NCBI GenBank assembly: GCA_947627215.1 | Contig: CANQVD010000042.1 | Span: forward strand, 1-32,083 | Direction: 5' to 3' | From: an uncultured Eisenbergiella sp. | Lineage (GTDB): Bacteria; Bacillota; Clostridia; Lachnospirales; Lachnospiraceae | DNA: 32,083 nt | In this document: piece after piece, positions 2,197-21,261 of the stretch | How the letters are laid out: each line of letters begins with the position of its first letter | How positions within the stretch are numbered: the first letter of the stretch is position 1 | Notes under the pieces: model-generated | Seen by the model: only the letters and a program-made list of their open reading frames with translations | Told to the model about the DNA's origin: nothing | Databases searched by the model: none | Position numbers and translations under genes: made by a program

Positions 2197-2551
2197 GGCA
2201 ATCTCCATTCCGGAGCGTTTACGCGGCGGAGGCGCCAGCTCCATAAAATAAAAAAATCTGCAATTTCGGATAAAAAGAAACGACAGATTAAAAAGAACCC
2301 CTATTCACGACTTCATGATATAGCTTAGCAGATTTTGAAATGAAAGTCTAGTAATTTTTTCTTTTTCCGGTAAAATGGATGTTGTTCAGCGGAACCGTCC
2401 GCGGATCCTTCGCCGGGAAGCCCGGCTGGGGGACGCCTGCGGAGCGTTCCGGCGAATGGCAGCAGGCAGAAGGATCCGGAAGTCCGGCGCGGGGCGCACC
2501 CGTCCCGGCGGGCGGTGTCCGGGCGTTTACGGCAGACAGAAAGGAGCGGGC
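2197..2551. other. Divergent intergenic region before helD
   Basis: About 355 bases between the divergent acetyltransferase and helD. It has an AT-rich part (2245-2375) with a perfect 9-base inverted repeat, AAAATCTGC (2253-2261) and GCAGATTTT (2328-2336), and a GC-rich part (2376-2551) that stays open in the helD frame but reads as an Arg/Gly-rich sequence without protein character. I take the second part as untranslated leader. A TAAAAT at 2370-2375 could be a -10 box, but no good -35 accompanies it. Confidence 0.4.
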
Positions 2552-5500
2552 ATGGCGGAAAAGAAAAAAATCGCGGGGACCTCACGGCAGGCGGAGGAGG
2601 CGTATCTGGAAAATACGCTGGCCGTCGTCCGGAACAATGTAAAGAATTACGGCGCACAGGTCCGGCAGATGAAGGCGGATATCGATGAGATGCTGGAGCA
2701 TTTTCATGACAACGATGTGGAAGTGCTCACCATCCTGAACAACACGGTCACCATGCACGATCACATGAAGCGTGCGCTGGAGCGGAACGAAAAGGCGCTG
2801 TCGAAGCCGTATTTCGGCAGGATCGTATTCCACGACGAGGCGCTGGACCGGGAGGAGTCCCTTTATATCGGGCGGGGCGGCATTTTTAAGGATACCACGC
2901 ACGGCGTCGTGGTGGACTGGCGTGCGCCGGTGGCCAACGCCTACTACGAGAACGGGCTGGGAAAATGCAGTTATGCGGCGCCGGACGGAAAACGGCTGGA
3001 GATCAACCTGGAGCTGAAGCGCACCTATGAGATCGAGGACGGGCGTCTGCTGGATTATTTTGACAGCGAGGTGATCGCCAACGACGATCTTTTGACCAAG
3101 TATCTGGCGAAAAACAAGCAGGCCGTGCTGGGCGAGATCGTCGCCACCATCCAGAAGGAACAGAACGAGATCATCCGCAGATCGCCCTATCACAATATCC
3201 TCGTGCAGGGCGTGGCCGGTTCCGGAAAGACCACGGTGGCGATGCACCGGATCTCCTTTATCCTGTACAACTACCAGGAGCGCTTCCGTCCGGACGATTT
3301 TTATATCGTGGGAAGCAACCGGATTCTGCTCAATTACATCACGGGCGTGCTGCCGGACCTGGACGTGTACGGTGTGCGCCAGATGACCATGGAGCAGCTT
3401 TTTGTCCGGCTTTTATATGAGGATTGGGATGAGAAAAAATACCGGATCCGCCCCACGGCGCCGTCCGGCGGCAGGGAGAGCGTGAAGGGGAGCCTTTCCT
3501 GGTTCCGGGATCTGGAGGAGTTCTGCAGGAGGCTGGAGTGGGAAACCATCGACCGCCGGTCCGTTTTCCTGGATCCCAGACAGTTCGTGGAGGGCTTCCG
3601 GGACGGGAAAACGGGCGTCTTTGATGAGACGGGCGGCGTGCCCTCGGACCCGCAGACGTTGGTGCGGCTGGCGGACGGGGAGGCGGTGGAGCGCTATATC
3701 CGCCAGAATCCCGGCGTGTCCGTGCAGAGCAAGATCGATATGCTCAACGAACGCCTGCTCAATAAGGTCCGGGAGGAATTCTTAGGCAAGGGCGTCAAAT
3801 ATACGGAGGCGGAGCGAAAGGCGATCCTGAAGGCGTTCCGGGGGCGGTACGGCGGAAAGGTGTGGAAGCGCCCGATCTATGAGCTGTATCAGGATTTTCT
3901 GGCGTCTCAGATCCGAAAGGGATATGATGTGCGCATGCCGAAGGATGCGTTCAACGTGTACGATCTGGCCGCCCTGGCCTATCTGTATAAACGGATCAAG
4001 GAAACGGAGGTCATCAGCGAGGCGCACCATGTGGTCATCGACGAGGCCCAGGATTTCGGCATGATGGCGTACTGCGTGCTGAAGTTCTGTATCCGCGGCT
4101 GTACCTATACGGTGATGGGGGACGTTTCCCAGAACATTCATTTCGGCTGCGGGCTGAACGATTGGGAGGAACTGAAGGAGCTGCTTCTGAGCGATGACGA
4201 GGCGGCGGGCTTCTGCGTCCTGAAAAAGAGCTACCGGAATACGATGGAGATCTCCGAATTCGCTTCCCGGATCCTGCGGCATGGGCGGTACGCCGTCTAT
4301 CCGGCGGAGCCCATCATCCGGCACGGCGAGGCCGTAACCGTGGAGCGGGTTCGGGAGGAGGACATGGCGGAACGGGCCGCCGGACTCTGCCGGGACTGGC
4401 AGGCGAAGGGACACGGCACCATCGCCGTGATCTGTCGGGATCAGGCCGAAGCCGACCGGGCCGCAGAAAGGCTCGGAGCGCTGATCGATGTGATGGAGAG
4501 CGATCCGGAGACGATGGATTTCGGAAACGGCATCATGGTCCTGCCGGTGGAGATGACGAAGGGGCTGGAATTCGACGCCGTGCTGATCTGGGATCCCACG
4601 AGAGAGGCGTATCCGGTGGACGACGGCCACGCGAAACTCCTCTATGTGGCGGCTACCCGGGCGCTGCATGAGCTCTGCGTGCTGCATACGGGAGAGCTCA
4701 CCGGCCTGATCGCGGATCCGGCGCCGGAGGCGGAGGTGCGGCAGACTTCGCCTATAGAAGTGAAGGAACGCGTTTCGGAAGGACCGGCAAAGCCCGCCGC
4801 TCCGGCTGCGGCGGAAGGACGCCTCCAGCGCCGACCGTCGGCGCGGCCCGTTTTGCGGCAGGGAAAACAGCCCGGAGCGGGAACGCCGGAACCGAAAGTG
4901 GAGGAAAAGCGGCCGGAGGCGGAAAAGCAAATCCCTTCCGCATCACATCCGCATCCCACCGTGCCGCATCCGCAGCCTTCTGTGCAGCGCCCGCGCACCC
5001 TTGCGCCGGAACCCGCGCTGCAGTTCGGCGATATGCCCTCCACGGAGAGCCTGCGCCCGGCGGGACACGCACGGATCGATCTGTCCGTGCGCTGGGCGAC
5101 TAAGGGAGCGGACGGCCTGTACCTGCAGAGCCGCTATGGCGTGCTGCGTATCAGCCCGGTGGGCAGCGGGATCGTCCGGGTCACATTTGCCAGGGGAGGA
5201 GAGATCGGCACCGGGACACACCCCGGGATCGCCGTTCGGCGGGTCGAGAAGGCATGGACGTATAAAAGTACGGGCAGCGCGCTGGAGCTCTCCACGCAGG
5301 AGCTTCGTCTCCGGGTGGAAAAATCCACGGGAGCCATTCATTACCTGACGCCGGAGGGAAAGCTGCTCCTGGCGGAACGGGACAGGGAATGCCGTCAGAT
5401 GGAGCCGGGAGCGGGACGGAACATGAAGAACTGGCTGTTCCTGAACTGGACGAAGGGAGAAAATCTGTATGCGCCGACTGTGAAGGAGCGGGACTGGCTT

Positions 5501-5749
5501 CCGCTGAAGGGGACCGCCCGCTGCATTTCCCATGGCAGCGGCGCGGAGAGACTGCCGCTCCTCGTGTCCGACCGGGGATACGGGATCCTGTTGGCGGCGG
5601 ACGGCCCGGCGGTCTGCTGCGACATCCCGGCCTATGGGTCGTATCTGTATACGGAGAGCCCGCAGATGGATTTCTATTTTCTCGTGGGGAAGCGCCCTGC
5701 CACGGTCCTGAATGCGGCGGCGTATCTGTGCGGGAGAATGGAGAGGTGA
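2552..5749 (+). CDS. helD: HelD-type RNA polymerase recycling helicase with C-terminal GH31-N-like domain
   Basis: HelD proteins are superfamily 1 helicase-like ATPases that bind RNA polymerase and release it from stalled or post-termination complexes. This 1065-residue protein starts at the ATG preceded by AAAGGAG (2540-2546). Residues 10-100 form the N-terminal coiled coil expected to enter the polymerase secondary channel. The ATPase motifs are in order: GVAGSGKTT (Walker A, 220-228), VVIDEAQD (494-501), GDVSQNIH (523-530), KKSYRNT (558-564), EMTKGLEFDAVLI (667-679) and LLYVAATRA (696-704). The helicase part ends near 730; B. subtilis HelD is about 770 residues. A Pro/Ala/Glu-rich linker (about 730-835) leads to a second domain (840-1060) with GLYLQSRYGVLRISPVG, IVRVTFARGG, ELRLRVEKSTGAIHYL and LLVSDRGYGILL, matching the N-terminal galactose-mutarotase-like beta-sandwich of GH31 glycosidases. 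No GH31 catalytic barrel follows. Single gene, start well supported. Confidence 0.88.
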   Translation: MAEKKKIAGTSRQAEEAYLENTLAVVRNNVKNYGAQVRQMKADIDEMLEHFHDNDVEVLTILNNTVTMHDHMKRALERNEKALSKPYFGRIVFHDEALDREESLYIGRGGIFKDTTHGVVVDWRAPVANAYYENGLGKCSYAAPDGKRLEINLELKRTYEIEDGRLLDYFDSEVIANDDLLTKYLAKNKQAVLGEIVATIQKEQNEIIRRSPYHNILVQGVAGSGKTTVAMHRISFILYNYQERFRPDDFYIVGSNRILLNYITGVLPDLDVYGVRQMTMEQLFVRLLYEDWDEKKYRIRPTAPSGGRESVKGSLSWFRDLEEFCRRLEWETIDRRSVFLDPRQFVEGFRDGKTGVFDETGGVPSDPQTLVRLADGEAVERYIRQNPGVSVQSKIDMLNERLLNKVREEFLGKGVKYTEAERKAILKAFRGRYGGKVWKRPIYELYQDFLASQIRKGYDVRMPKDAFNVYDLAALAYLYKRIKETEVISEAHHVVIDEAQDFGMMAYCVLKFCIRGCTYTVMGDVSQNIHFGCGLNDWEELKELLLSDDEAAGFCVLKKSYRNTMEISEFASRILRHGRYAVYPAEPIIRHGEAVTVERVREEDMAERAAGLCRDWQAKGHGTIAVICRDQAEADRAAERLGALIDVMESDPETMDFGNGIMVLPVEMTKGLEFDAVLIWDPTREAYPVDDGHAKLLYVAATRALHELCVLHTGELTGLIADPAPEAEVRQTSPIEVKERVSEGPAKPAAPAAAEGRLQRRPSARPVLRQGKQPGAGTPEPKVEEKRPEAEKQIPSASHPHPTVPHPQPSVQRPRTLAPEPALQFGDMPSTESLRPAGHARIDLSVRWATKGADGLYLQSRYGVLRISPVGSGIVRVTFARGGEIGTGTHPGIAVRRVEKAWTYKSTGSALELSTQELRLRVEKSTGAIHYLTPEGKLLLAERDRECRQMEPGAGRNMKNWLFLNWTKGENLYAPTVKERDWLPLKGTARCISHGSGAERLPLLVSDRGYGILLAADGPAVCCDIPAYGSYLYTESPQMDFYFLVGKRPATVLNAAAYLCGRMER

Positions 5750-7385: not shown

Positions 7386-8804
7386 ATGGAAACCAAATCT
7401 ACACGGCCTTTTGGCTTGCTCGATAAGATCGGGTATGCCATGGGCGACTTCGGCAACAACTTTACCTTCATTTTTGCCAGCATGTACCTGATGACCTTCT
7501 GCACCGATGTGCTGGGTATGGTGCCGGCCGTCGTGGGAACCATTCTGGCGGCATCCAAGATCGTGGACGCTTTCACCGATTTCGGCATGGGCCGCATCTG
7601 CGATTTGGCCAAGCCGACCAGGGACGGCCGCTTTCGTCCCTGGATCAAGCGCATGGCCATCCCCATGGGCATCAGCAGCATACTGATCTACCAGTATTGG
7701 GTCAGCAATTTCCCGATGGGCGGGCGCATCGCCTGGGTCGCCATCTTCTACATCGTGTGGGGAAGCTTCTTCTACACCGCCTGCAACATCCCTTACGGCT
7801 CGATGGCTTCCGTCATCACCAACGATGCCAAGCAACGCACCCAGCTTTCCACCTGGCGTACCGTCGGCGCCACCCTTTCCGGCATGCTTATCGGTATCGT
7901 CGCCCCTATGCTGGTGTTCGCCCGCAATGAAGCCGGCCAGCAGTATGTCGTGCCGGGAAAATTCACCATGACCGCTGTCATCTTCGGCGTCTGCGCTGCC
8001 GTGTTCTACCTTGTATGCTACGCTCTCTCGGTGGAACGCGTACAGATCGCGCCCGCTAAAAAGGACGACGGCAAGGCCAGGATCTCAGCCGGCGAGACGC
8101 TCAAAAACCTCGTTACCTGCCGCCCGCTGCTGGCCATCGTCATCGTGGCGATCTTCACGCTCGTTGCCAGCCTCGGTATGTCCTCGCTCAACACCTATCT
8201 GTATAAGGATTACTTCAACAACACCAACGTCATGGGCCTTGCCAGCATGGCCGGCACCATCTCGATGATCGCCATGGCCCCGGTCGCCACCATCCTTTCG
8301 GCCAGAATCGGCAAAAAGGAGACCGGCTGCCTCGGTATTGGCATCTCTGCCGTGATTTTCGTCATCATGTTCCTGATGCGTGTGACCAACCCCATGGTCT
8401 TCATCGGGCTGTATGTTCTGCAGGGCATGGGCATGGGCCTGAACAGCATGGTCACCTGGGCCTTCATCGGCGACGTTATCGATTCGCAGGAGGTCAAGAC
8501 CGGTGTTCGCACCGACGGCACCGTCTATTCCACCTATTCCTTTACCCGCAAAATTGCGCAGGCCGCCGCGGCCGGCCTGGGCGGATGGCTGCTGTCCGCC
8601 ATCGGCTATGTGCAGAGCACGGCCGGTGAGGTCGTGGTGCAGACCGAGGCTGTGCGCCAGAGTATCTACACCTGCATGACCCTGCTGCCCGCCGTCCTCT
8701 ATATCCTGGCCTTCCTGTGCATGTTCTTCCTCTATCCGTTGGGCAAAAAGCAGGTCGATGAGAATACCCGCATTTTGAATGAGCGCCGCGCCGCCAATAG
8801 TTGA
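7386..8804 (+). CDS. GPH-family sugar:cation symporter
   Basis: A 472-residue transporter of the glycoside-pentoside-hexuronide:cation symporter family (MelB/YicJ type). It opens with the hallmark FGLLDKIGYAMGDFGNN, has the loop motif GRICDLAKPTRDGRFRPW after the second helix, and about twelve hydrophobic segments including FTFIFASMYLMTFCTDVLGM, LLAIVIVAIFTLVASLGMSS and CMTLLPAVLYILAFLCMFFL near the end. Length is normal. It lies 41 bases before the GH88 gene in the same direction, and most likely imports the uronic-acid-containing di- or oligosaccharide that GH88 hydrolyses. The cation is not readable from sequence. Codon use is rich in GCC and ATC and differs from the flanks, consistent with the AraC/GPH/GH88 block having moved as a unit. 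Confidence 0.9.
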   Translation: METKSTRPFGLLDKIGYAMGDFGNNFTFIFASMYLMTFCTDVLGMVPAVVGTILAASKIVDAFTDFGMGRICDLAKPTRDGRFRPWIKRMAIPMGISSILIYQYWVSNFPMGGRIAWVAIFYIVWGSFFYTACNIPYGSMASVITNDAKQRTQLSTWRTVGATLSGMLIGIVAPMLVFARNEAGQQYVVPGKFTMTAVIFGVCAAVFYLVCYALSVERVQIAPAKKDDGKARISAGETLKNLVTCRPLLAIVIVAIFTLVASLGMSSLNTYLYKDYFNNTNVMGLASMAGTISMIAMAPVATILSARIGKKETGCLGIGISAVIFVIMFLMRVTNPMVFIGLYVLQGMGMGLNSMVTWAFIGDVIDSQEVKTGVRTDGTVYSTYSFTRKIAQAAAAGLGGWLLSAIGYVQSTAGEVVVQTEAVRQSIYTCMTLLPAVLYILAFLCMFFLYPLGKKQVDENTRILNERRAANS

Positions 8805-8845
8805 CGGGGCCAAACCCTTACGCATTTTAGGATGGGAGTATAACT

Positions 8846-10063
8846 ATGAGTGAAAAAATCATTGAAGTGAACACTGCAGCTGAAATGTATGAAATGCTCA
8901 CCGCCGCCGACCGCGCCTGGGTGGACGAAGTGCTCAAAAAAGCCCATGCCAAGCTGTGCAAAGTGCGGGAACGCTCTGCCAAAAAGCTGCCCAGCGAGGC
9001 GCAGAACGGTGTACATGACAACAAACTGGAAACCAAGGGCAATATCGGCATCGCCAGGGGTTTTTGGACCAACGGGTTCTGGGCAGGCATGCTGTGGCAG
9101 ATGTACGCCGAGACCGGCGACGAGCGCTACAAGGAGATCGCGCGCTTCACGCTGCCGATCCTGGACGAGTGCCTGCTTGAAATGGATACCCACGACATCG
9201 GTTTTCTCTGGCTGCCCACCGCCGTGCTGGACTACAAGATCACCGGCGACGAGGGCGCAAAAAACAGCGCCCTGGCCGCAGCCAAGTGGCTGGCCGGGCG
9301 ATTTAACCCGGCGCCGAATATCATCCGTGCCTGGGGTTCCGGCGATGAGAAAATGGCGCTTTCCAAGGTGGATCCGCCGATGCGGCTGGCCGGTGTGACC
9401 ATCATCGATTGTATGATGAACCTGCCGCTGCTCTACTGGGCCAGCAATGAGACCGGCGACCCGCGCTACCGCAACATAGCCATGCGCCACGCCGATATGG
9501 CGATGCAGTATTTTGTCCGCGAGGACGGCAGCGTCATCCACATCAACGAGTTCGACCCCGATACCGGCGCCTATGTTGATAACTTCGGCGGTCAGGGCTA
9601 CGGCAAGGGCTCGGCGTGGAGCCGCGGTCAGGGCTGGGGCCTGTGCGGCTTTACCGACAGCTACAAGGCCACCGGCAAGAAAGAATATCTGGAAACGGCC
9701 AAAAAGATCGCCGCCTATGTGCTGCCCAACATCCCGGCGGATGGACTTGTCCCCTCGGATTTCCGCCAGCCGCCGGAGCCGTGGGTGCAGGATGATATCG
9801 CGGCCTGTGTGCTTGCCACCGCGCTCATCGATCTGGCCGAGCTGGTGCCGAAGCAAAAGGACGCCTACCTTGGCGCTGCGCTCAAGATGCTGCACGCCAT
9901 CGACGAGAAAAGCGCCGATTGGAGCCCGGACACCGACCCAATCACGCTGCACGGTACGGCGGGCTACCATTTGCCGGGGCGCAACATTAACTTCATCTAT
10001 GCTGACTATTACTACATCGAGGCTGTCCGCAAGCTGAAGGGCCGCGACACATACCTTTGGTAA
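8846..10063 (+). CDS. GH88 unsaturated glucuronyl hydrolase
   Basis: A 405-residue enzyme of glycoside hydrolase family 88. These cytoplasmic enzymes hydrate the double bond of 4,5-unsaturated glucuronic acid at the end of lyase-made disaccharides, releasing the uronic acid. Visible family blocks: GFWTNGFWAGMLW (72-84), HDIGFLWL (116-123, with the first catalytic Asp at 117), TIIDCMMNLPLLYWAS (185-200, second catalytic Asp at 188), GQGYGKGSAWSRGQGWGLCG (249-268) and IYADYYYIEAVRKL (384-397). The 71-residue gap between the two Asp is close to the 61 of Bacillus UGL. No signal peptide, so it acts after import by the symporter. The ribosome site is GATGGGAG before ATG. The native substrate may be chondroitin, hyaluronan, heparan or another lyase product; no lyase gene lies in the window. 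Confidence 0.9.
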   Translation: MSEKIIEVNTAAEMYEMLTAADRAWVDEVLKKAHAKLCKVRERSAKKLPSEAQNGVHDNKLETKGNIGIARGFWTNGFWAGMLWQMYAETGDERYKEIARFTLPILDECLLEMDTHDIGFLWLPTAVLDYKITGDEGAKNSALAAAKWLAGRFNPAPNIIRAWGSGDEKMALSKVDPPMRLAGVTIIDCMMNLPLLYWASNETGDPRYRNIAMRHADMAMQYFVREDGSVIHINEFDPDTGAYVDNFGGQGYGKGSAWSRGQGWGLCGFTDSYKATGKKEYLETAKKIAAYVLPNIPADGLVPSDFRQPPEPWVQDDIAACVLATALIDLAELVPKQKDAYLGAALKMLHAIDEKSADWSPDTDPITLHGTAGYHLPGRNINFIYADYYYIEAVRKLKGRDTYLW

Positions 10064-10082
10064 CGGGAAGCCATTGGAAGTA

Positions 10083-10136
10083 AAAGGCCATCGCCAAAAC
10101 AAGGCGGTGGCCTTTGCAACGCTTGTTTTGGCGATG
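10083..10136. terminator. Nested, mutually exclusive hairpins between convergent operons
   Basis: Stem A pairs 10083-10095 (AAAGGCCATCGCC) with 10103-10115 (GGCGGTGGCCTTT), 13 pairs with one G-U, loop of 7. Stem B pairs 10089-10103 (CATCGCCAAAACAAG) with 10122-10136 (CTTGTTTTGGCGATG), 15 perfect pairs, loop of 18. They share 10089-10095 and 10103, so only one can form. Read leftward, stem A ends in TTTTA and suits the operon from the right; rightward the T-run is weak. Confidence 0.7.
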
Positions 10137-10207
10137 TTTGATGGTTGTTTTCAAATTGCTTCGTATGAAGCCGTTGCAAAATAACCGGCCCCTTTTTCGT
10201 TTTTGGA

Positions 10208-10900
10208 TCAGTATAGCTCCGGCACTTTCTTTTTGAAGATCAGGAAAGTCATTCCAAACGTAACGGTCGTAGCCAAAAGGATCTGCGGCAGCGACTCCTG
10301 ATTCGTTTCGTTTTTGGTGATCATGACTTGCCGGAGCACGATGACGATCCATGAGGTTACGATCGCGGCCGGAACGGATTTTCGTATCATGCCGATGATG
10401 AATGGCCAGAGCGACAGCACTGTGCATACGGCTGTTGCAGTGATCGCCGTCGGGATCCATGTCTGAAGCATGGAAATCCGGAAGGTTCCCTCCAGCATGT
10501 CAAAATGTCTGTCCGTAAATACGATATAGCCGCAGCAGCAGATATACCCGATCGTCATGGAAATTGCCGTATAGACCATAATGATGATCAGTTTGCCTGC
10601 GATCAGCTTCGTGCGGTTCAAAGGATAGGAAAACATAATGGTGATCGTTCGCTGATCATACTCTCCGATCACCAGCCGGGCGGTTAAAACCGACGAATAC
10701 ACCGGGAAAAGAAAGGACATCAGCAGGCCGATGGCGAGATAGGTACTCTCAAACGTATCTTTGGCCTGCTCCGGGTCCGTCATGCTGTCCCACAAAGACA
10801 CGGTGATGAAAAGCATACTGAAAAGGATCGCGGCGGCCGTAAAGATCATATTGCGGGCGAACCCGTTCTTTTTCAGTTCCAGTCTGATCAGATGCGCCAT
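10208..10900 (-). CDS. ABC-2 type permease, last gene of the Fic/TCS/ABC operon
   Basis: A 230-residue integral membrane protein with about six hydrophobic segments, beginning MAHLIRLELKKNGFARNMIF and including YLAIGLLMSFLFPVYSS, LIIIMVYTAISMTIGYICCC and ILLATTVTFGMTFLIF. Between segments two and three it has the ABC-2 segment GEYDQRTITIMFSYPLNRTK, typical of permeases pairing with BcrA-like ATPases (export of, or immunity to, peptide antibiotics). The start codon lies one base after the ATPase stop, with GGAGG inside the ATPase's last codons, so translation is coupled. Only one permease is visible, so it would act as a homodimer. Confidence 0.85.
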   Translation of the reverse strand: MAHLIRLELKKNGFARNMIFTAAAILFSMLFITVSLWDSMTDPEQAKDTFESTYLAIGLLMSFLFPVYSSVLTARLVIGEYDQRTITIMFSYPLNRTKLIAGKLIIIMVYTAISMTIGYICCCGYIVFTDRHFDMLEGTFRISMLQTWIPTAITATAVCTVLSLWPFIIGMIRKSVPAAIVTSWIVIVLRQVMITKNETNQESLPQILLATTVTFGMTFLIFKKKVPELY

Positions 10901-10901
10901 T

Positions 10902-11810
10902 TTATTTTTCCTCCATTAGCTGGAAGAAGTAATCTTCCAGAGTGTCCTGTTTGCGCCATAAGCTCTCTAAACCGACACCGTTTTCAAGGAGGGCTTTTGA
11001 TAAAACCTTGCCGGAAATATCCGGATCATAGATCCGGATGAACTCTTTGTCCAATACGCTGAAGCTTGCGATACCCATCTGTTCCAGTAAAGCCGCTGCC
11101 CGGGCGGCATCATCAACCTGCAGACTGATGTACGCCGTCTGGCGCTTATGGATTTCCTCGATGGGCAGTTCTGTCAGCAATTTTCCGTGCTGGATGATCC
11201 CGATCGTATCGGCGATCAGGTCCACCTCGGACAGGATGTGGCTGGAAATAAAAATGGTCGTTCCCTCTTCCCGGTTCAGCCGCCGGAACAGGTTCCGCAT
11301 TTTGCAGATGCCTTCCGGGTCCAATGCGTTGATCGGTTCATCTAAGATCAGGAATTCCGGACGTGCGAGGATCGCTCTTGCGATCGCCAGCCGCTGCTTC
11401 ATGCCTAAGGAATAATGGCGGATCTGCTTTCCCTCAACGTTTTGCAGGTCCACCATCTGCAAAACCTCGTCTATCCGCTCTTTGTTGGGAAAGCCCATGT
11501 ATTCGCAATGCAGCTCCAGGTTTTGGCGCGCCGTTAATCTGTCATAAAAGGCCGGATTCTCAATGATAGATCCCACCCGCTTGAAAATCTCATAGCTGCG
11601 GTCGGTAACCTTCTCGCCAAATAGATGAACCTCCCCGGCATCCGGCCGGATCAGGTTCAGGATCATTTTCATGACGGTGCTTTTTCCTGCGCCGTTTGGC
11701 CCGACAAAGCCATAAACAGACCCTTTGGGAATATGAATGTTCACATCGTCTGCAGCGACGTTTCCTTTGTAGGACTTTCGCAGCCCTACGGTTTCCATGA
11801 CAGCATCCAT
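10902..11810 (-). CDS. BcrA-like ABC transporter ATP-binding protein
   Basis: A 302-residue ATPase. Motifs: GPNGAGKST (Walker A, 37-45), SLGMKQR (signature, 134-140), FLILDEPINALDP (Walker B and D-loop, 153-165) and the switch His in IFISSHILSEVD. The 80-residue C-terminal extension after the nucleotide domain is typical for the BcrA/lantibiotic-immunity group. The start at 11810 is preferred over 11837 because GGAGG (11819-11823) lies eight bases before it; the longer frame would place that site inside the gene. It pairs with the ABC-2 permease directly downstream and follows the histidine kinase by 74 bases. Likely role: ATP-driven removal of membrane-active peptides or bacitracin-like compounds; the substrate is an inference. 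Confidence 0.9.
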   Translation of the reverse strand: MDAVMETVGLRKSYKGNVAADDVNIHIPKGSVYGFVGPNGAGKSTVMKMILNLIRPDAGEVHLFGEKVTDRSYEIFKRVGSIIENPAFYDRLTARQNLELHCEYMGFPNKERIDEVLQMVDLQNVEGKQIRHYSLGMKQRLAIARAILARPEFLILDEPINALDPEGICKMRNLFRRLNREEGTTIFISSHILSEVDLIADTIGIIQHGKLLTELPIEEIHKRQTAYISLQVDDAARAAALLEQMGIASFSVLDKEFIRIYDPDISGKVLSKALLENGVGLESLWRKQDTLEDYFFQLMEEK

Positions 11811-11884
11811 TTTGTATTCCTCCGGTACGGCTCTCATGATACAAAACAGACTTCTCTTTTCTCTGCCGGAAAGCTAACTTTTTT

Positions 11885-12805
11885 CTAACTTTTCAAAACG
11901 ATCGTGAAAACGGTCTTCTCATTCGGTATGCTGTACACCTGCAGATCTGCGCCTATTTGCGCGGAAAGATTTTTTGCGATTGCAAGTCCCAGACCGTTTC
12001 CTGACGATTTCGGGGCAGTCGTATAGTTTCTTGTGAATATCTGCTTTTGCCGCTGCGGCGGCATTCCTTTCCCATGATCCTCTATTTCAATGACACTTTT
12101 ACTTTTCTCTGCGGTAAGGCGCAGGGCAATATACTTGCCGTCGCCGCCATGCCGGATCGCATTGTCGATCAAGTTTTTCAAAATGCGCTGCAGGGCGTCC
12201 CGGTCCGTGTCTGCATAGATCGGTGCGGCCGGTATCCGGATATCCGCCTCAAACTGCTGCCCTTCTAGCAGATCGTAATATTCCAAAATGGTATCCCGGC
12301 ATAATCCCGAAACATTCTCCTTTTGCAGCTTCAAAGAAAGATCGCCGGAAGCGATCTTAGACATTGTAAAGTAATCGTTTACTGTTGTTATGAGGTCATC
12401 CGCTTTACGGTCAATTTTGGCGGCCATTGTATGAATGACCTCCGGCACCGATAAAGCATCCGCCTTTGCGGCCAACATTTCACTGTTCCCTTTCAGCACG
12501 GTGAGAGGGGTACGGATATCATGCGAGATATTTGTAAGGACCTGTGCTGTCGCTTTTTGTGCCTGTTCATATTCGGACTTCTTTTCATAGAAGCTGTGAA
12601 GCAATGTGTTGACCGCGGCCCCTAGTTTTTTGATACAGGCATGGTCGGTAGGGAGAAGCACAAAGCCATTTTCAGAAGCGGCAGAAAGTGTTTCCAACCG
12701 ACTGCTGATATAGCTGATCTCTTTTTGCAGCTTCTCATACTGTATTCTCTGCCAAATGAAGGTGAGCAGCAAAGCGGCTGAAAGCGCGGCAAACAGAACC
12801 CACAT
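11885..12805 (-). CDS. Sensor histidine kinase with a single membrane helix
   Basis: A 306-residue kinase. Only one membrane helix is visible (WVLFAALSAALLLTFIW, about 2-18) and there is almost no outer domain, so it probably senses within the membrane or through the ABC transporter, as in the BceS/intramembrane-sensing group. Residues 19-85 are a helical linker. The phospho-acceptor is His95 in NISHDIRTPLT; the ATPase domain has LIDNAIRHGG (N box), IEDHGKGMP (G1) and GNGLGLAIAKNL (G2). Its ATG follows the response regulator TAA without a gap, and GGAGG within the regulator's last codons serves as ribosome site. Neighbours: response regulator upstream, BcrA-like ATPase downstream. Confidence 0.9.
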   Translation of the reverse strand: MWVLFAALSAALLLTFIWQRIQYEKLQKEISYISSRLETLSAASENGFVLLPTDHACIKKLGAAVNTLLHSFYEKKSEYEQAQKATAQVLTNISHDIRTPLTVLKGNSEMLAAKADALSVPEVIHTMAAKIDRKADDLITTVNDYFTMSKIASGDLSLKLQKENVSGLCRDTILEYYDLLEGQQFEADIRIPAAPIYADTDRDALQRILKNLIDNAIRHGGDGKYIALRLTAEKSKSVIEIEDHGKGMPPQRQKQIFTRNYTTAPKSSGNGLGLAIAKNLSAQIGADLQVYSIPNEKTVFTIVLKS

Positions 12806-13498
12806 TTATTGATCCTCCATCTTGTAGCCGATTCCCCATAAGGTCTTAATATAGGCTGTCGTATCTTCTTCACCGTTTTTCAGCTTCAGGCGCAGCCGGT
12901 TGATATGGGTATTCAGTACGTTTTCATTTCCGAAATAGGGCTCCTTCCAGATGAGCTCATATAAGCGTTCCTTTGAGAACGCCTGTCCCGGATGGGCCGC
13001 CAGCAGATGCAGGATTTTAAACTCTATGGGGGTCAGCTCGATCGGCGATCCCTGCCGGCTGACAGTATGGGCTGCGGGGTCTATCTCCAGATCCCTGATC
13101 CGGATGCATGTGTCGCCCGGCACAGCCTGATACGTTCTGGCCCGCCGGATATTGGCCCTGATCCTCGCGGTGAGCTCGATCAGGGAAAAGGGCTTTACAA
13201 CGTAATCGTCGGCCCCCAGATTCAGCCCCAATGATTTGTCGGTATCATTGTCTTTTGCGGTGATAATGATGATCGGGATCGTGCTGACCTGCCGAATGGT
13301 CTTGATGATCTCCATACCGCGCATGTCCGGCAGCATAAGGTCTATCAGGGCAAGCGAATAATCGTCATAGTTTTTGATGCTCCGGACAGCCGTTATCCCG
13401 TCACGGAAGGAACTTATCTCAAAGTCTCCTGATAAATAGTCTTTTATCATGTCCCTGATCTCTGCATCATCTTCGATCAGTAGGATTTTGTTTTTCAT
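12806..13498 (-). CDS. OmpR-family response regulator
   Basis: A 230-residue response regulator. The receiver shows the acidic pair ED (9-10), the phospho-acceptor Asp53 in LALIDLMLPDMRG, the conserved Thr in IIIITAKD and Lys in DDYVVKPFS. The C-terminal winged helix has LTPIEFKILHLLAAHPGQAF, NVLNTHINRLRLKLK and IKTLWGIGYKME. It probably controls this operon and the ABC transporter in it. Its start codon lies inside the 3' end of the Fic gene: the two frames overlap by 32 bases (13467-13498). The ribosome site (AGGG) is weak, so expression may depend on translation of fic. Confidence 0.9.
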   Translation of the reverse strand: MKNKILLIEDDAEIRDMIKDYLSGDFEISSFRDGITAVRSIKNYDDYSLALIDLMLPDMRGMEIIKTIRQVSTIPIIIITAKDNDTDKSLGLNLGADDYVVKPFSLIELTARIRANIRRARTYQAVPGDTCIRIRDLEIDPAAHTVSRQGSPIELTPIEFKILHLLAAHPGQAFSKERLYELIWKEPYFGNENVLNTHINRLRLKLKNGEEDTTAYIKTLWGIGYKMEDQ

Positions 13499-14531
13499 TG
13501 CGTGCCCTGCCGTTTCTGCATTTTCTGTATTTCTGATTCCTGCTGTTGGGCTTATCCGGGATCGTGCGCTCGATCAGCTCCTGCTCCAGAGCAGGATTCA
13601 GATAATTCTGGCGGAACGTCGGCCTGTGTGAAAGCCCGAGCCGCTCCATAAGCTCCGCGGCGGAAAGCGTATCCTCGCCGAGAACGGAAAGCAGCCGTTC
13701 AATCGGGGATCTGTCCTGATCGGCGACTTGGTCGGTGACTTGATCGGTGACTTGGTCGGTGCCGCGGTCGGGTACAGCTGTTTCTCTCAGACTGTCTCTG
13801 ATAATCTCGAGCATCAATTCCACGAAAACGGCGCTGTCCGCCTGTCTGTCAGCGGTGCCGAGGGCATCGTAGTATTCCTTTTGGCGTGATCGGATCAGTT
13901 CTTCGATCGGAAGCCAGAAAAACAGATCCTTCCATTTTCCGAGAAGAAGGCTGTGCCACATCCGTCCCAAACGGCCGTTCCCGTCCGCGAAGGGATGGAT
14001 GAATTCAAATTCATAGTGAAAAACAGCGCTTTTGATCAGCGGATGAAGTTCGGACTGCTGATACCAGGCGAAAAGATCCCGGATATGTCCCGGCACCAAT
14101 GTTGCCGGAGGGGCCATGTGGACCAGGACATCTCCGTCAAATACGCCGACACCGCCGGAGCGGAATCGCCCGTTCTCGGCCACGAGGCCGTTCATCATCA
14201 GCCTGTGGGCCTTTAAAAGATCATTGACGGATAAGGGATCCAACTGCAGCATTTGTTCGTAGGCCGCGTAGGCGTTCTGCACTTCTCTGATCTCATTTGG
14301 ATCACCGAGAACGCGCCTGCCGTCCAGGATCGCCGTTACCTGTGTCAGCGACAGGGAATTATGCTCGATCGCAAGAGAAGAATGGATGGTACGGATGCGG
14401 TTTTCCCGCCGCAGGTGCGGACTTATCGTTCCTCCCTGCAAAACGGTGATCCGACCGACCTGTTCACTGATTTCCGCGATCAGGGATACCATTTTATCTG
14501 TCATATGAAAAGGCGGTTTGTATTCGCTCAT
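13467..14531 (-). CDS. Fic-domain protein (AMP-transferase type) with C-terminal winged helix
   Basis: Fic enzymes transfer AMP (or another nucleotide part) to hydroxyl groups of target proteins. Here the active-site loop HPFADGNGRLGR (179-190) is complete with catalytic His179. Residues 51-58 (SSLAIEHN) match the N-terminal inhibitory helix of class II Fic proteins, so activity is expected to be self-inhibited. A TDQV repeat (three copies plus an ADQD, 258-272) joins the core to a winged-helix segment (SPIERLLSVLGEDTLSAAEL). The tail is basic and ends 16 residues beyond the usual KPNSRxQKYR end, running into the response regulator. Start 14531 is preferred over 14537: GGAGG lies nine bases before it but only three before the upstream ATG. 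The first gene after the promoter at 14620-14648. Target unknown; the winged helix suggests DNA binding or autoregulation. Confidence 0.88.
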   Translation of the reverse strand: MSEYKPPFHMTDKMVSLIAEISEQVGRITVLQGGTISPHLRRENRIRTIHSSLAIEHNSLSLTQVTAILDGRRVLGDPNEIREVQNAYAAYEQMLQLDPLSVNDLLKAHRLMMNGLVAENGRFRSGGVGVFDGDVLVHMAPPATLVPGHIRDLFAWYQQSELHPLIKSAVFHYEFEFIHPFADGNGRLGRMWHSLLLGKWKDLFFWLPIEELIRSRQKEYYDALGTADRQADSAVFVELMLEIIRDSLRETAVPDRGTDQVTDQVTDQVADQDRSPIERLLSVLGEDTLSAAELMERLGLSHRPTFRQNYLNPALEQELIERTIPDKPNSRNQKYRKCRNGRARNEKQNPTDRR

Positions 14532-14619
14532 CAACATCTGCCTCCGGGATTTTGATGCGGGTTATTGCCTAAATGATCGTGCCGTGTACGGTTCTGACGT
14601 TCTATGACTGCGTACTTCT

Positions 14620-14648
14620 ATTATATTGCAGATTGTTTTTTGAAACAA
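14620..14648 (-). promoter_or_regulatory. Promoter of the Fic/TCS/ABC operon
   Basis: On the minus strand TTGTTT (14643-14648) and a consensus TATAAT (14620-14625) are 17 bases apart. The start site would be near 14613, leaving about 80 bases of leader before fic. No other promoter of this quality is visible between fic and the permease, so all five genes may share it. Confidence 0.65.
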
Positions 14649-14736
14649 TTGCAATTATCAGAAAGCGCGAAAATAAAATGAGCAGGCGCGGACAAAAGGC
14701 AGGACGGATTATGTAAGGATCCTGAGGCGCGGCGCT

Positions 14737-17019
14737 TCATTTGATCTTTTCTTTGGAGCGCCGGTAGGCGACCGGCGTCATGCCGAAGCGCTTTTTGAAC
14801 AGGTTGTAGAAATAGTTGGTGTTCAGGATCCCGACAGCCTGACTGATCTGCGTCACGGTTTGCCGGGTCTCCAGCAGTAGCTGCGCAGCGTGGTCCATCC
14901 GGAGATTGTTCAGATAATCGATAAAAGGATAGGTGGTCTGCGCCGTAAACAGTTTTCCGAAGTAGGCTGGCGACAGGCCCGACAGTTCGGCGAGCATGCG
15001 CAGGGTAAGCTCCGGATTGGAATAGTTTTTCTGCAGATATAGGACGGCGGAGGAGATGATCTGTTCGTTGCCGTGCTGCCGGTTGATGTTCAGCACATGG
15101 GCGGTCAGGGTCACAAATTCGGTGCATCGCCGACGCAGCATATAAACATTCGGAAGAGAGGAGTTGATCTGATTGATTTTTTCCATCAGCATTCCGTAGG
15201 TGTCGCCGACGGAAACCACGGAAGAGAAATCGTCCAGAAGGCTCATCATCACGTGGTTGAAGTAGGAAATCGCCGTGGCGAAGCTGTAGTCGGCCATCCG
15301 CGAAAAGGTCTGATCGAATTCCCGTTCGCAGCCGTCTAAGTCTCCTTGCCGGATCAGGCTTGCCAGCCGCAGATGGAGATCCTTCTGATACCGGTCCATG
15401 CGTTCCGGCGAAATGGCCTCTCCTGCCAGGAATACAGTCCCGCGGGTAGAAAGAGGGGCGTACTTCAGTGCGAAGCCAGTGGACACATAGCACATATTGA
15501 TGTTTGAAGCGGACGCTACGATGCTGCCGATGCAGATCGTGGTCTCCATTGAAAAGCGCACCTCCATGACAGAGATAATCCGCGTCAGTTCTTCGCGAAT
15601 GCTGACCGGATACTGTTCCTCCGGCAGCGGCAGCAGGAAAGTGAGAATATTTTTGGAAGAGAGATACCTCGTGGTTTTTCCGTATCGTTCCAGAACCTCC
15701 GCAGCGATATTTTCCAGACTGTAGGAATAGATGAAACCCTTCGATTCGCTCAGCTCCGGCGTATCGCCCTTGGGGACACAGCGGATGGCGATCACGCAGT
15801 AGTAGGGAGAGCTCAGGTCAATGCCGAATTGTCGGCAGGTTTCGGCGGCTTTGGCATCCGGCGTGAGCTCGCCGTGGAGCAGGCGCTGGACGCACCGCTT
15901 TTTTGACTCGGCATAGGAGGCGATCAGTCCCTGCTCTAGCTGGTTCGCGCGGGCATAAGTCTGCGCGACGGCCTGGTTAAGTTGCTCTAATTGGTTGCCG
16001 CGCGGCTCCGGCGTCTTCACATATCGGTGGTAAAGGATTTCGATGGGGCGTGACAGCCAGGCGCTGGTGCGGTAGGCCAGGAGCGTTCCAACGAGCAAAA
16101 CCAGCAGGCACGAAAAGAGCGTCAGCGCGGCAATCTGCGGAAGCGAGCCGAGAATATCAGAATAGGGAACGATGTTGATCACTGTAAAATAGGAATCCGA
16201 GGTTCTGGCATAGGTGACCAGCACCCGTGTCTCATCGGAGAGCCGACAGGAAAAGGTGCCGGAGGCATCGTTCATTTCCGGGAGGGCTTCTTTCAGGACG
16301 GCGGGACTGTCCGTCAGGGAAAAGGTCTCGTCCCGGTCGGATGCGGTGTTGACGGAAAAGATTTCGCCGTCCTGATTGAGAATCAGGATTTGTTGAAACC
16401 CCGCGTCGCTGCGGAGGCTGTTGATCGCCTGAGAAAAGAAATCGCTGTCTACGTCGATGATTACCAGATCTGGTTTTTCTGTATTCCGCAGACGGAAAGG
16501 GAGGATGAAGGAGTAGACATACTTGGTCTTGGTAGGTTGGGTGGCATAGTTGGCTCCGATCAGGCGGAGTGTGCAGGTGCTGAGGCAGTTTTCGACAGGT
16601 GCGCGGTAATAGTATGCGATGTCTTCCTCCGTCAGGAAGCCCGCCGTGGAATTGGAGATGAAGCGATTGGAAGCGCAGTTATAGAAGCTGACATAGCGCA
16701 CATACGGGTAGGAGGTCTGGATCTCCCGCAGTTTGATGGCGGCGGCTGCTTCCTTGAGGCGGTCGAAGGAGCCGGAAGAGAGACAGGTATTGGTGGCCGA
16801 GCTCTGGAGGATTTGATTGCCGATGGAAATCATTTCTTCGTGCAGAAGCTCAGTCATCTGGCAGACCTGCTCCAGTTGGCTGATGGAACGTGATCTGGCT
16901 CCTGTGATCTGGATGTGAGAAAACAGAGAGAACATAATTGCGGAAATCAGCGCGATCACCAGGAAAATCACCAGCAGAAAGCTGAACAGATACTGATTGA
17001 ACAGAGTTTTTTTTCGCAT
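14737..17019 (-). CDS. Membrane-bound AraC-family regulator (YesN-like)
   Basis: A 760-residue one-protein sensor-regulator. Two membrane helices (about 9-33, FSFLLVIFLVIALISAIMF, and 295-316, LTLFSCLLVLLVGTLLAY) flank an outer domain of some 260 residues with Cache-like features (YPYVRYVSFYNCAS, ILILNQDGEIFSV). A linker follows, then a poorly conserved central domain and the AraC DNA-binding domain at the end (about 655-755): ELTLRMLAELSGLSPAYFGK and ISQAVGILNTNYFYNLFKKR. Such regulators stand beside Lpl-type sugar ABC transporters in Clostridia and Paenibacillus and sense extracellular sugar. The start at 17019 has AAAGG seven bases upstream; the frame extends to 17061, but that part is less likely translated. 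Divergent from the permease genes, which it probably activates. Confidence 0.88.
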   Translation of the reverse strand: MRKKTLFNQYLFSFLLVIFLVIALISAIMFSLFSHIQITGARSRSISQLEQVCQMTELLHEEMISIGNQILQSSATNTCLSSGSFDRLKEAAAAIKLREIQTSYPYVRYVSFYNCASNRFISNSTAGFLTEEDIAYYYRAPVENCLSTCTLRLIGANYATQPTKTKYVYSFILPFRLRNTEKPDLVIIDVDSDFFSQAINSLRSDAGFQQILILNQDGEIFSVNTASDRDETFSLTDSPAVLKEALPEMNDASGTFSCRLSDETRVLVTYARTSDSYFTVINIVPYSDILGSLPQIAALTLFSCLLVLLVGTLLAYRTSAWLSRPIEILYHRYVKTPEPRGNQLEQLNQAVAQTYARANQLEQGLIASYAESKKRCVQRLLHGELTPDAKAAETCRQFGIDLSSPYYCVIAIRCVPKGDTPELSESKGFIYSYSLENIAAEVLERYGKTTRYLSSKNILTFLLPLPEEQYPVSIREELTRIISVMEVRFSMETTICIGSIVASASNINMCYVSTGFALKYAPLSTRGTVFLAGEAISPERMDRYQKDLHLRLASLIRQGDLDGCEREFDQTFSRMADYSFATAISYFNHVMMSLLDDFSSVVSVGDTYGMLMEKINQINSSLPNVYMLRRRCTEFVTLTAHVLNINRQHGNEQIISSAVLYLQKNYSNPELTLRMLAELSGLSPAYFGKLFTAQTTYPFIDYLNNLRMDHAAQLLLETRQTVTQISQAVGILNTNYFYNLFKKRFGMTPVAYRRSKEKIK

Positions 17020-17076
17020 ATTTTTACCTTTCTCCTTCATTCGGAAGGGCATTTCCCCCAAACGCGCCGTAAGCTT

Positions 17077-17104
17077 GTATAATTCAACATTTTAATTGTA
17101 GCAA
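17077..17104 (-). promoter_or_regulatory. Promoter of the membrane AraC gene
   Basis: Minus strand TTGCTA (17099-17104), 16 bases, TTATAC (17077-17082). The start site near 17070 gives about 50 bases of leader. The rest of the divergent region (17105-17374) is AT-rich up to about 17300, and I see no equally good rightward promoter; TTCAGG-17-TTATAT near 17260-17290 is a weak guess, as expected if activation is needed. Confidence 0.5.
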
Positions 17105-17374
17105 TACTTTTTCGCAAAAACAACGGGAAGAGCCGGAATAGCGAAATATTTATAGAAAATCAAAAAATTTATAATAAGAAAAGGAAATCAGAAGGAATTC
17201 CCCAAAACAGCAAATTTCGAAAAGATTGGAGCGATGCGGAAAAGTTAAAGTTTACAAATTCAGGGCATGATGTCACCATATTTATATGCAAATTATGGAA
17301 ACGGCATGGACGGAGTCGGGTGGGATGCCCGGGAGGATTCCCATGGCGGCACAAACAGAAAGGGGAGGGTGCAA

Positions 17375-18331
17375 ATGCGGAAAGGCGTCGCAAAAATCGA
17401 AACGGGAAAGAAAAAGAAACGGATCAGTCCCATGAAGGAGCTCTGGCAGAACAAGTTCCTATATCTCCTCGCGCTCCCGGCAGTGGCGTATACATTCATT
17501 TTTTCCTATTGTACTCTGCCGTATATCGCGATCGCGTTCGAAAAGTTCAATTACAAAACGGGGATTCGAAGCCCCTTCGCCGGGCTCTCCAACTTCGCCT
17601 ACTTTTTTAAGTCCAGTTGGGCCTGGACGGTCACGCGCAATACCCTGGTTATCAACGTCCTGTTTCTGATCGCCGGGACGGTGTGCGCGGTCCTGCTGGC
17701 TCTGATCCTCAACGAGGTCAAGGCGAAGCGGTTCCTGAAAGTGTCCCAGTCTATGATGCTGTTCCCATATTTCATTTCCTGGGTCATCGTCAGTTATATG
17801 CTCCAGGGGATCCTGGGAACCGATACGGGGCTGCTCAATAATCTGATCGTCTCTTTGGGCGGGGAAAAGGTGAATTTCTATGCCTCCCCGGGCTACTGGT
17901 ATCCGATCCTTCTGATTCTGAACGTCTGGAAGAATACCGGCTACAGCACGATCATCTATCTGGCGGCGATCGCCGGGATCGATGAGGGTATTTATGAAGC
18001 CGCCTATGTTGACGGCGCTTCCAGGTTTAAGCGCGTCATCTATATCACGCTGCCGCTTCTGGCCCCGACCATCTGTATCATGGTCCTGATGTCGGTAGGG
18101 CGGATCTTTTACGGCGACTTCGGCATGCTCTACGCCATCATTCGCGACAATAGTACCCTGATGCCGCTGGCGGAGGTAATCGATACCTATGTATACCGGA
18201 CTTTTAAGAATACCGGGGATCCGAGCCTGTCCATGGCGATCGGACTGTATCAGTCCGTGGTCGGCTTTATTCTGGTTTTCACCGCAAACTGGATTGTGCG
18301 CAGGAAATTTCCGGACGGCGCGCTGTTTTAG
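17375..18331 (+). CDS. Carbohydrate ABC permease, LplB family
   Basis: A 318-residue inner-membrane permease of the CUT1 sugar transporter class. Six hydrophobic segments are visible, from FLYLLALPAVAYTFIFSYC to VVGFILVFTANWIV. The cytoplasmic coupling loop is EAAYVDGASRFKRVIYITLP, the EAA motif that contacts the ATPase. The start at 17375 is chosen because GGGGAGGG lies just upstream; the in-frame ATG at 17267 would add 36 residues without membrane or family character. First gene of a four-gene set: permease, permease, binding protein, GH28-like enzyme. No ATPase gene is in the set, which is common: CUT1 systems share a housekeeping MsmX/UgpC-type ATPase encoded elsewhere. Confidence 0.9.
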   Translation: MRKGVAKIETGKKKKRISPMKELWQNKFLYLLALPAVAYTFIFSYCTLPYIAIAFEKFNYKTGIRSPFAGLSNFAYFFKSSWAWTVTRNTLVINVLFLIAGTVCAVLLALILNEVKAKRFLKVSQSMMLFPYFISWVIVSYMLQGILGTDTGLLNNLIVSLGGEKVNFYASPGYWYPILLILNVWKNTGYSTIIYLAAIAGIDEGIYEAAYVDGASRFKRVIYITLPLLAPTICIMVLMSVGRIFYGDFGMLYAIIRDNSTLMPLAEVIDTYVYRTFKNTGDPSLSMAIGLYQSVVGFILVFTANWIVRRKFPDGALF

Positions 18332-18349
18332 AAGGAAGGAGGCACAGAA

Positions 18350-19270
18350 ATGCAAAGCATACAGCGGAAAATAGGGGTTGCTGAGAGCCGGATTCGCAGG
18401 AGCGCGGGGGAACAGGCCGCGACCTTCCTGATTTATTTCGTCGTTTTCCTGTTCGCGCTCGCCTGTATTATGCCATTTGTGCTGGTGGTCATCGTCTCCT
18501 TCAGCAGCGAGCGCTCCATCACCTTAAACGGTTATTCCTTTATCCCCGCGGAGTGGTCGCTCGGAGCGTATCGGATGCTGTTCATGTCGAAGTCTTCCGT
18601 GCCGCGGGCCTATGGAGTTACCTCGATGGCGACAGTAGCTGGCACGCTGGTGGCCACGCTGATTACCTTCGGCGCTGGATATACGCTGGCAAACCGGGCG
18701 TGTCGGTATCGGAACGGCCTGTCCCTGTATTTCTATATCACGATGGTATTTTCGGCGGGGCTGGTTCCCTGGTATATGGTGTGCAAGGCGCTTGGCTGCT
18801 TTGACAATATTTGGGCCCTGATCGTTCCGTCTCTGATGTTTTCACCTTTTAATATGTTTCTGGTGCGGAATTTTGTCAGGGATATACCGGCGGAACTGAA
18901 CGAGTCGGCGAAGATCGACGGTGCGGGAGAGGTGCGGATCGCCTTTTCAATCTATTTCCCGCTGTGTATGCCGGTATTGGCAACGATCGCGCTGTTCTAT
19001 GCCATCGGTTATTGGAACAATTACTTCAACGCGGTCATGCTGGTCAACAACTCGGATTATTACACACTGCAGATGCTGTTATTCAAGATCCAGTCCGAAA
19101 TTACGGCGCTGGGCAACCTGGCATCCGGGGCCCAGCATATATCGAATCCGCCGAAGGAGAGCTTTAAGATGGCGACCTCCGTGATCACCATGGGCCCCAT
19201 CGTCATCCTGTACCCGTTTTTGCAGAAGTATTTTGTAAAGGGAATGGTGGTCGGAGCGGTGAAGGGCTAA
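18350..19270 (+). CDS. Carbohydrate ABC permease, LplC/YtcP family
   Basis: A 306-residue permease, the second subunit of the CUT1 transporter. It has six membrane segments (first FLIYFVVFLFALACIMPFVL) and the coupling loop ELNESAKIDGAGEVRIAFSI, followed by the family's YFPLCMPVLATIALFYAIGYWNN-type region. The C-terminus MVVGAVKG is the typical end of this family. AGGAGG stands before the ATG and only 18 bases separate it from the first permease, so the two are translated from one message. Substrate most likely an oligosaccharide of pectin type, judged by the GH28-like gene downstream. Confidence 0.9.
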   Translation: MQSIQRKIGVAESRIRRSAGEQAATFLIYFVVFLFALACIMPFVLVVIVSFSSERSITLNGYSFIPAEWSLGAYRMLFMSKSSVPRAYGVTSMATVAGTLVATLITFGAGYTLANRACRYRNGLSLYFYITMVFSAGLVPWYMVCKALGCFDNIWALIVPSLMFSPFNMFLVRNFVRDIPAELNESAKIDGAGEVRIAFSIYFPLCMPVLATIALFYAIGYWNNYFNAVMLVNNSDYYTLQMLLFKIQSEITALGNLASGAQHISNPPKESFKMATSVITMGPIVILYPFLQKYFVKGMVVGAVKG

Positions 19271-19423
19271 AACCCAGGTATTCAGGGCGGCGGAGCGCGT
19301 CGGCCCGGAGGGCAGCCCCAAATAAGGAACCGGGGCGGCTCCCTGCCGCACCTTCCGTTCAAAGCCCCTGATATACAGAAAGGATTCCAGTCAACGAAGA
19401 CGTACAAAAAAAGGAGGGAGTAC

Positions 19424-21061: not shown

Positions 21062-21087
21062 CACGTCTTCCCGGGAGGGAGGCGCTG

Positions 21088-21162
21088 CCGCGGCGGGTAT
21101 AGGGCGGAGGCAGAAGAGGCATACGGAGTACGGCAAAAGCCACTCCGTATGCCCCGCCGCGG
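21088..21162 (+). other. Long GC-rich hairpin after the binding protein
   Basis: GGCATACGGAGT (21118-21129) pairs perfectly with ACTCCGTATGCC (21142-21153). An outer pair, CCGCGGCGGG (21088-21097) and CCCGCCGCGG (21153-21162), closes around it with a 20-base left bulge. A third stem with one bulged T lies at 21206-21216/21226-21235, just before the GH28 ribosome site. No T-run follows, so these are more likely mRNA-stabilising or processing elements than terminators. Confidence 0.55.
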
Positions 21163-21261
21163 TTCGGCCGGATTCGGGCGACGCGTTTCCCGAAGGGGAG
21201 AATGTGGGCCTTCGGCGGAACTCCTGCCGAGGCCCGATTGAAAAGAAGAGGGGAAAACACG

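Follow-up and report, generated by a model that had tools for sequence, protein, structure and literature searches.

A HelD-type motor protein of Lachnospiraceae with a GH31-derived C-terminal domain

The window analysed here, a stretch of 32,083 nucleotides from an uncultured Eisenbergiella sp. (contig CANQVD010000042.1, forward strand), contains at positions 2552-5749 (+) one open reading frame of 1065 residues. Its product joins a HelD-type motor, a long linker that is predicted to be disordered and a β-sandwich of the kind found at the N-terminus of GH31 glycosidases; the catalytic barrel of these enzymes is absent. By computation, the fused proteins form a single clade, their tails have low dN/dS values and a loop that is conserved in GH31 enzymes is eroded. 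We regard the fused proteins as an apparently new subfamily of HelD, in which a domain was exapted for a putative function. The reading that we prefer, and hold with about even confidence, is that the protein recycles RNA polymerase and carries a C-terminal protein-docking module, whose GH31 sandwich was acquired probably once.

Architecture of the fused protein

A ribosome-binding site (AGGAG, 2542..2546, +), recognized from the sequence, lies 5 bases before the ATG. The HelD-type motor comprises residues 1-720 (2552..4711). Among the NCBIfam models HelD_BACSU (NF041464) is the best (E 1.4e-104, 350.6 bits), with a score below the curated equivalog cut-off of 419 bits; the window protein is thus described as a HelD-type motor and is not given the label of a B. 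subtilis equivalog. The closest PDB entry by sequence is 6wvk, B. subtilis HelD on RNA polymerase (E 1.5e-73, two stretches), and a Foldseek search with the full-length model places HelD chains at ranks 1-7. Both results relate the motor to HelD proteins that were solved on RNA polymerase. The TM values of these matches are just 0.21-0.23, owing to the uncertain domain arrangement of the full-length model (motor mean pLDDT 72, pTM 0.42), and the arrangement predicted in this model should not be trusted.

In all 48 aligned fused sequences G220 and A222-T228 of the Walker A motif (GVAGSGKTT, residues 220-228, 3209..3235) are invariant and V221 is nearly so. DEAQ (497-500), GDVSQN (523-528) and TKGLEFD (669-675) are likewise invariant or nearly invariant. 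We take these four to be SF1 ATPase motifs, and each of them is present. The N-terminus is modelled as a long helical hairpin (residues 12-84, 2585..2803) with helices 12-49 and 56-84 and an acidic tip (D53/D55/E57). Among the 48 sequences E57 is invariant and D53 almost so; D55 is absent from the list of conserved positions. By analogy with B. subtilis HelD, for which parts of one study (PMC7749167) describe this role, the hairpin is likely the secondary-channel arm. Since the hairpin keeps an acidic tip and the Walker A motif is kept in all aligned fused proteins, the motor looks functional; it may use ATP to drive RNA polymerase off nucleic acids.

The motor most resembles class I HelD (B. 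subtilis; 6wvk, 6zca), with which it shares the SF1-type motor, the long N-terminal hairpin with an acidic tip and the Walker A motif, and which supplies both the best PDB sequence match and Foldseek ranks 1-2. The B. subtilis protein ends at 774 residues, whereas in the window protein 345 residues (linker and GH31-derived domain) follow the motor. HelR and the class II HelD proteins (Actinobacteria; 6yxu) share the motor domain homology, but their models reach just 154.6 and 137.9 bits, far below the 350.6 bits of class I.

Residues 721-824 (4712..5023) form a linker rich in Pro, Ala, Lys and Arg. Between the folded parts, residues 728-820 have pLDDT values below 50, mostly 27-29 (about 28), and are thus predicted to be disordered. 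Its length across 53 proteins is 81-249 residues, and 47 of these linkers are positively charged overall.

The tail (residues 825-1065, 5024..5746) is modelled by AF2 with a pLDDT of 91. A structure search with this model (Foldseek, VIA-align 2) retrieved GH31-type enzymes exclusively, among the matches listed, with a matching β-sandwich over the full domain, and a tail profile searched against the PDB gave an E-value of 8.2e-17. The GH31 N-terminal domain is a non-catalytic part of the enzyme. Its Pfam profile, PF13802, reaches 15.5 bits for the window tail, below the gathering score of 27 bits, and E<=0.01 in 44 of the 56 members described below (best 5.5e-9). The window protein has no match to the catalytic TIM barrel, PF01055, at E<=1; in the normal GH31 gene of the same genome the barrel is found with an E-value of 8.6e-89. 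Compared with GH31 glycosidases (FjDex31A, 6jr8; BoGH31A, 5jou), the window protein lacks both the barrel and the C-terminal domains according to Pfam.

A preliminary description of the window, made from its letters, had recognized a HelD motor, a Pro/Ala-rich linker and a barrel-less GH31 N-terminal-type sandwich, and profiles and the structure model support all of these parts. Of the checks it proposed for the tail, structure prediction with fold search supported the GH31 relationship among the matches listed, and the Pfam score of the window tail itself stayed below the gathering score. Its remark that such an architecture was not known as described also agrees with our searches, which were confined to open-licence PubMed Central, a negative of limited reach, and found no description of a HelD-GH31 fusion. 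None of the words "glycos-", "extension", "fusion" and "C-terminal" is used in the main text of the HelD class survey (PMC8655204), as far as available.

Other genes of the window can be described briefly. A frame for the nickel-insertion protein LarC (765-1289, -) covers profile positions 207-373 only; in the stretch upstream of it (1290-1560) some residues continue before stops appear, and the N-terminal half seems to be missing. Sugar-related genes follow the fusion at 7386-22548, with an MFS sugar transporter and a GH88-like enzyme and, farther along, ABC sugar permease-, solute-binding lipoprotein- and pectinase-like genes (assigned by eye). At 28981-30897 (+) a lipoprotein-like protein combines Flavodoxin_4 and DUF362 domains in a single chain.

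Distribution and origin of the fusion

When a collection of genomes from 84,980 species was scanned with an alignment of the tails, 59 loci were found, three of which (L089-L091) are true GH31 enzymes with a barrel. The remaining 56 tail loci come from 56 records, one per record, whose titles give Lachnospiraceae, genera that include Eisenbergiella and Acetatifactor, or loosely named Clostridia and Bacillota. In 52 of them the tail and HelD share a single open frame (L044 and L077 begin at a contig end), so that relatives have the architecture the preliminary description had suggested looking for. Two loci are split between HelD and the tail, L050 by one stop and L061 by a frame change; at L075 and L082 a contig end cuts off the locus, so that neither speaks for or against linkage to HelD. 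Named strains with the tail include Acetatifactor muris DSM 23669 (L055), bacterium D16-50 (L074) and bacterium 1xD8-48 (L076). As the scan patterns were drawn from one of two fused subclades, 56 is a lower bound.

Within the genus of the window, 9 of 13 genomes have a match that spans most of the motor, and the tail follows in frame in all nine. A motor-based sweep took 150 genomes from the window's family, each from a different genus, and found a HelD-type match (E<=1e-30) in 57. In 12 of the 150 this match runs into the tail in one frame (G081 is cut at a contig end), and a further genome, G170, has a split copy; the tail sequence is kept in all 12 one-frame members and in G170. In the latter (L123, 2279-5387), which sits in an otherwise fused clade, HelD and the tail are two overlapping frames that are split within the linker. 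In an evenly sampled set of 294 genomes of the order (tail search, E<=1e-18), ten have tail frames of 1016-1136 residues; each of these contains the motor and all belong to the window's family. The other frames found there are of GH31 length (784-908 residues), and one of them (G008) is a confirmed GH31. The ten include a single-contig genome that is 99% complete (G434) and encodes motor and tail in one frame of 1059 residues with 48% identity over residues 5-1044.

No complete stand-alone tail is present among the 56 tail loci. Two candidates were rejected: the frame of the G018 tail (L016) begins at a contig end, and the two frames of G170 overlap in the linker.

The motor tree was calculated from 64 of 92 trimmed motors, after the removal of 28 rows that were near-duplicates, incomplete or very distant; G170 was assigned to no group and the tree flags long outgroup branches. 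All 42 fused rows are set apart from the others by a single branch (100/97; present in 99% of 200 bootstrap trees). The split G170 falls inside the fused clade, and the tail-less G141, G180 and G188 form its sister group. Among the rows from the motor-based sweep there is no tail-less motor inside the fused clade; since most fused rows were recruited by their tail, loss is detectable through these sweep rows only. In the tail tree 27 tails form one clade against 7 GH31 domains (99/98). The simplest reading is that the GH31 domain was captured once, probably by an ancestor within Lachnospiraceae, from a donor GH31 gene of uncertain lineage.

Conservation and selection in the tail

The mean identity among 53 proteins is 72% for the motor, 17% for the linker, 69% for the 26 lead-in residues before the sandwich and 56% for the tail, which thus evolves faster than the motor. 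For 15 close, non-independent pairs the dN/dS values span 0.019-0.296 (tail), 0.028-0.145 (motor) and 0.184-0.843 (linker); they were obtained by the counting method NG86 with no significance test, and those of the five most distant pairs (dS >1) are unreliable. The fusion seems to be retained by selection. Purifying selection on the tail, which the preliminary description had named as a point to be checked, is consistent with dN/dS below 0.3 in 15 of 15 pairs. That description had left open whether the tail is a functional add-on or a captured gene fragment. Each alternative appears partly true, given a single apparent capture, the spread over many genera and the low dN/dS.

Thirteen fused tails from both subclades were compared with seven GH31 enzymes, all of which carry the barrel (Pfam). 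The loop LYGLG-EEG-LR-Q-N, which in GH31 presumably faces the active site, corresponds to residues 970-996 (5459..5539) and is eroded in the tails. Its residues Y973, G974, L975, R986, Q994 and N996 are invariant in 7/7 enzymes and are kept in only 5, 2, 2, 3, 0 and 1 of 13 tails, respectively. E970, G976, L985 and Y991 persist in 11-12 of 13 tails (E970 in 12, and in 7/7 enzymes). Residues of the fold core, such as R876, E942, S1006, G1009, Y1010 and D1040, are identical in all seven enzymes and all 13 tails.

Other positions set the tails apart. P829, L834, A989, S993 and C1023, among others, are present in 13/13 tails versus 0-1/7 enzymes (C1023 in none of the enzymes and in the tails of both subclades), and K924, R948 and Y1031 in 13/13 versus 3/7. 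The conserved lead-in motif to the sandwich, FGDMPSTESLRPAGH (residues 825-839, 5024..5068), aligns mostly with gaps in the seven enzymes, which have no conserved feature there. A second conserved stretch is CCDIPAYGSYL (residues 1022-1032, 5615..5647). The alignment of all 56 tails has 21 invariant columns, which include P829, G838, H839, C1023, D1024, Y1028 and G1029. The second subclade keeps G838 and H839 only partly, and D1024, found in 8/13 tails and 7/7 GH31 enzymes, is invariant in the window's subclade and variable in the second. As far as residues can tell, the pattern is what exaptation predicts, with the scaffold retained, the old function lost and new residues fixed.

Proposed function and alternative readings

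In the proposed scenario, an ancestor within Lachnospiraceae would have gained the GH31 N-terminal β-sandwich in frame after helD, probably once. With the barrel absent, the GH31-conserved loop would then have decayed while the fold was retained and new residues became fixed. The motor may act as in B. subtilis, with the hairpin inserted into the secondary channel, the main channel opened by the clamp arm and the nucleic acids released. On its tether of ~100 disordered residues the sandwich would make a second protein contact, with RNA polymerase, with a factor bound to it or with another HelD, and so may recruit or retain the motor at stalled complexes. The tail as a protein-docking module would be comparable to the Tudor domain of PcrA. 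According to parts of one study (PMC8318588), a long disordered linker tethers this C-terminal domain, which binds the RNA polymerase β subunit, and tight binding to the elongation complex depends on the domain. PcrA/UvrD is the nearest functional parallel: in it a long disordered linker joins a small β domain to an SF1 motor whose target is RNA polymerase, and the HelD tail would follow the same logic. The folds are unrelated, however, and RNA polymerase binding by the HelD tail is a proposal. As D1024 and other residues vary in the second subclade, one common interface is not assured.

RpoB and RpoC were compared in a set of 24 genomes, of which G155 yielded neither; the fragmented RpoC of G068 and G180 were omitted and the RpoB of G141 is partial. 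Neither in RpoB (23 genomes, 12 fused) nor in RpoC (21 genomes, 12 fused) does any gap column (with a difference of one half or more) or any column of disjoint residues separate fused from unfused lineages. The idea of a dock that co-evolved as an insert of RNA polymerase was therefore rejected, and docking on a lineage-specific insert, as in PcrA, is unsupported. In G122 and G188 (L190, L191), whose HelD proteins are both tail-less, RpoC has extra residues around alignment columns 559-664 that are absent from the other 19 genomes; G076 has a few extra residues at the first of these sites. According to the part of the HelD survey available (PMC8655204), Clostridia mostly lack the RNA polymerase δ subunit. 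The δ-type domain HARE-HTH (PF05066) is present in 1 of the 24 genomes, in a frame of 284 residues of G140. δ is thus seemingly absent from fused and unfused lineages alike, and the idea that the tail replaces it was dropped, as its absence fails to separate them.

It is doubtful, though worth weighing, that the sandwich serves intramolecular contact or self-association instead. It would then dock either on its own motor or onto another HelD, and gate the ATPase activity or the release from RNA polymerase. The tail is met only in cis with HelD (56 loci), and motor and tail distances are correlated (r 0.77, 51 proteins), although common ancestry alone yields such a correlation. Against this, the full-length AF2 model has no confident overall packing, to which the poorly modelled motor contributes, and the linker varies widely in length.

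Binding of a carbohydrate or another small ligand, which would couple RNA polymerase recycling to sugar status, is unlikely. The fold is of glycosidase origin, many of the genomes come from gut samples according to their record titles, and sugar-related genes lie downstream in the window. Yet the domain is non-catalytic in GH31, the loop that is invariant in the comparison enzymes is eroded, and no gene family, carbohydrate-related or other, is widely common beside the fusion. In this survey 3 kb downstream were present in 53 of 56 loci and 2.5 kb upstream in 46, and genes were named by eye. The most frequent neighbour family (15/56) groups mixed ABC ATPases that lie on either side, followed by a small protein (11/56) that in the six copies shown is encoded on the opposite strand just downstream. 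Clusters resembling sugar-type ABC permeases, found at 8/56 and 6/56 loci, speak for a ligand and belong mainly to one group of near relatives; a sugar gene set like that of the window is not widely common across the 56 loci. The sugar-binding or metabolic role suggested in the preliminary description is thus not supported so far by the eroded loop, the neighbour families or the lack of a free-standing tail. In a bolder form of it, which is also unlikely, the glycosidase domain would have been converted into a domain of a transcription factor. This domain would sense a metabolic signal, be it a sugar, a sugar phosphate or a partner glycosidase, and adjust how actively HelD clears stalled RNA polymerase. 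If true, transcription recycling in gut Lachnospiraceae would be wired directly to carbohydrate status.

It is very unlikely that the tail is just a neutral passenger, kept from an old fusion because it does no harm. The stop or frame change around the junction of L050 and L061 and the split in the linker of G170 would fit such a passenger, but dN/dS well under 1 disfavours it, as do the invariant columns and the persistence of the tail sequence throughout the motor-based sweep, even in split G170. An assembly or sequencing artefact, such as a deletion merging HelD with an adjacent GH31 gene, has a practically negligible probability and is refuted: the window does come from a draft assembly of 108 contigs, but most other loci, named strains included, and the single contig of G434 have the same single frame, motors of fused copies are as divergent as 51% identity to that of the window, and the genome's own GH31 gene (800 residues, barrel present) lies on a separate contig (C21).

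HelD is currently studied for its part in transcription recycling and in rifampicin tolerance. The spread of an exapted glycosidase domain through a whole HelD clade is a natural experiment on what an extra tethered domain adds to a recycling motor, and the tail-less sister lineages G141, G180 and G188 are a ready-made control. The family is also a clear case of an enzyme accessory domain reused outside carbohydrate chemistry.
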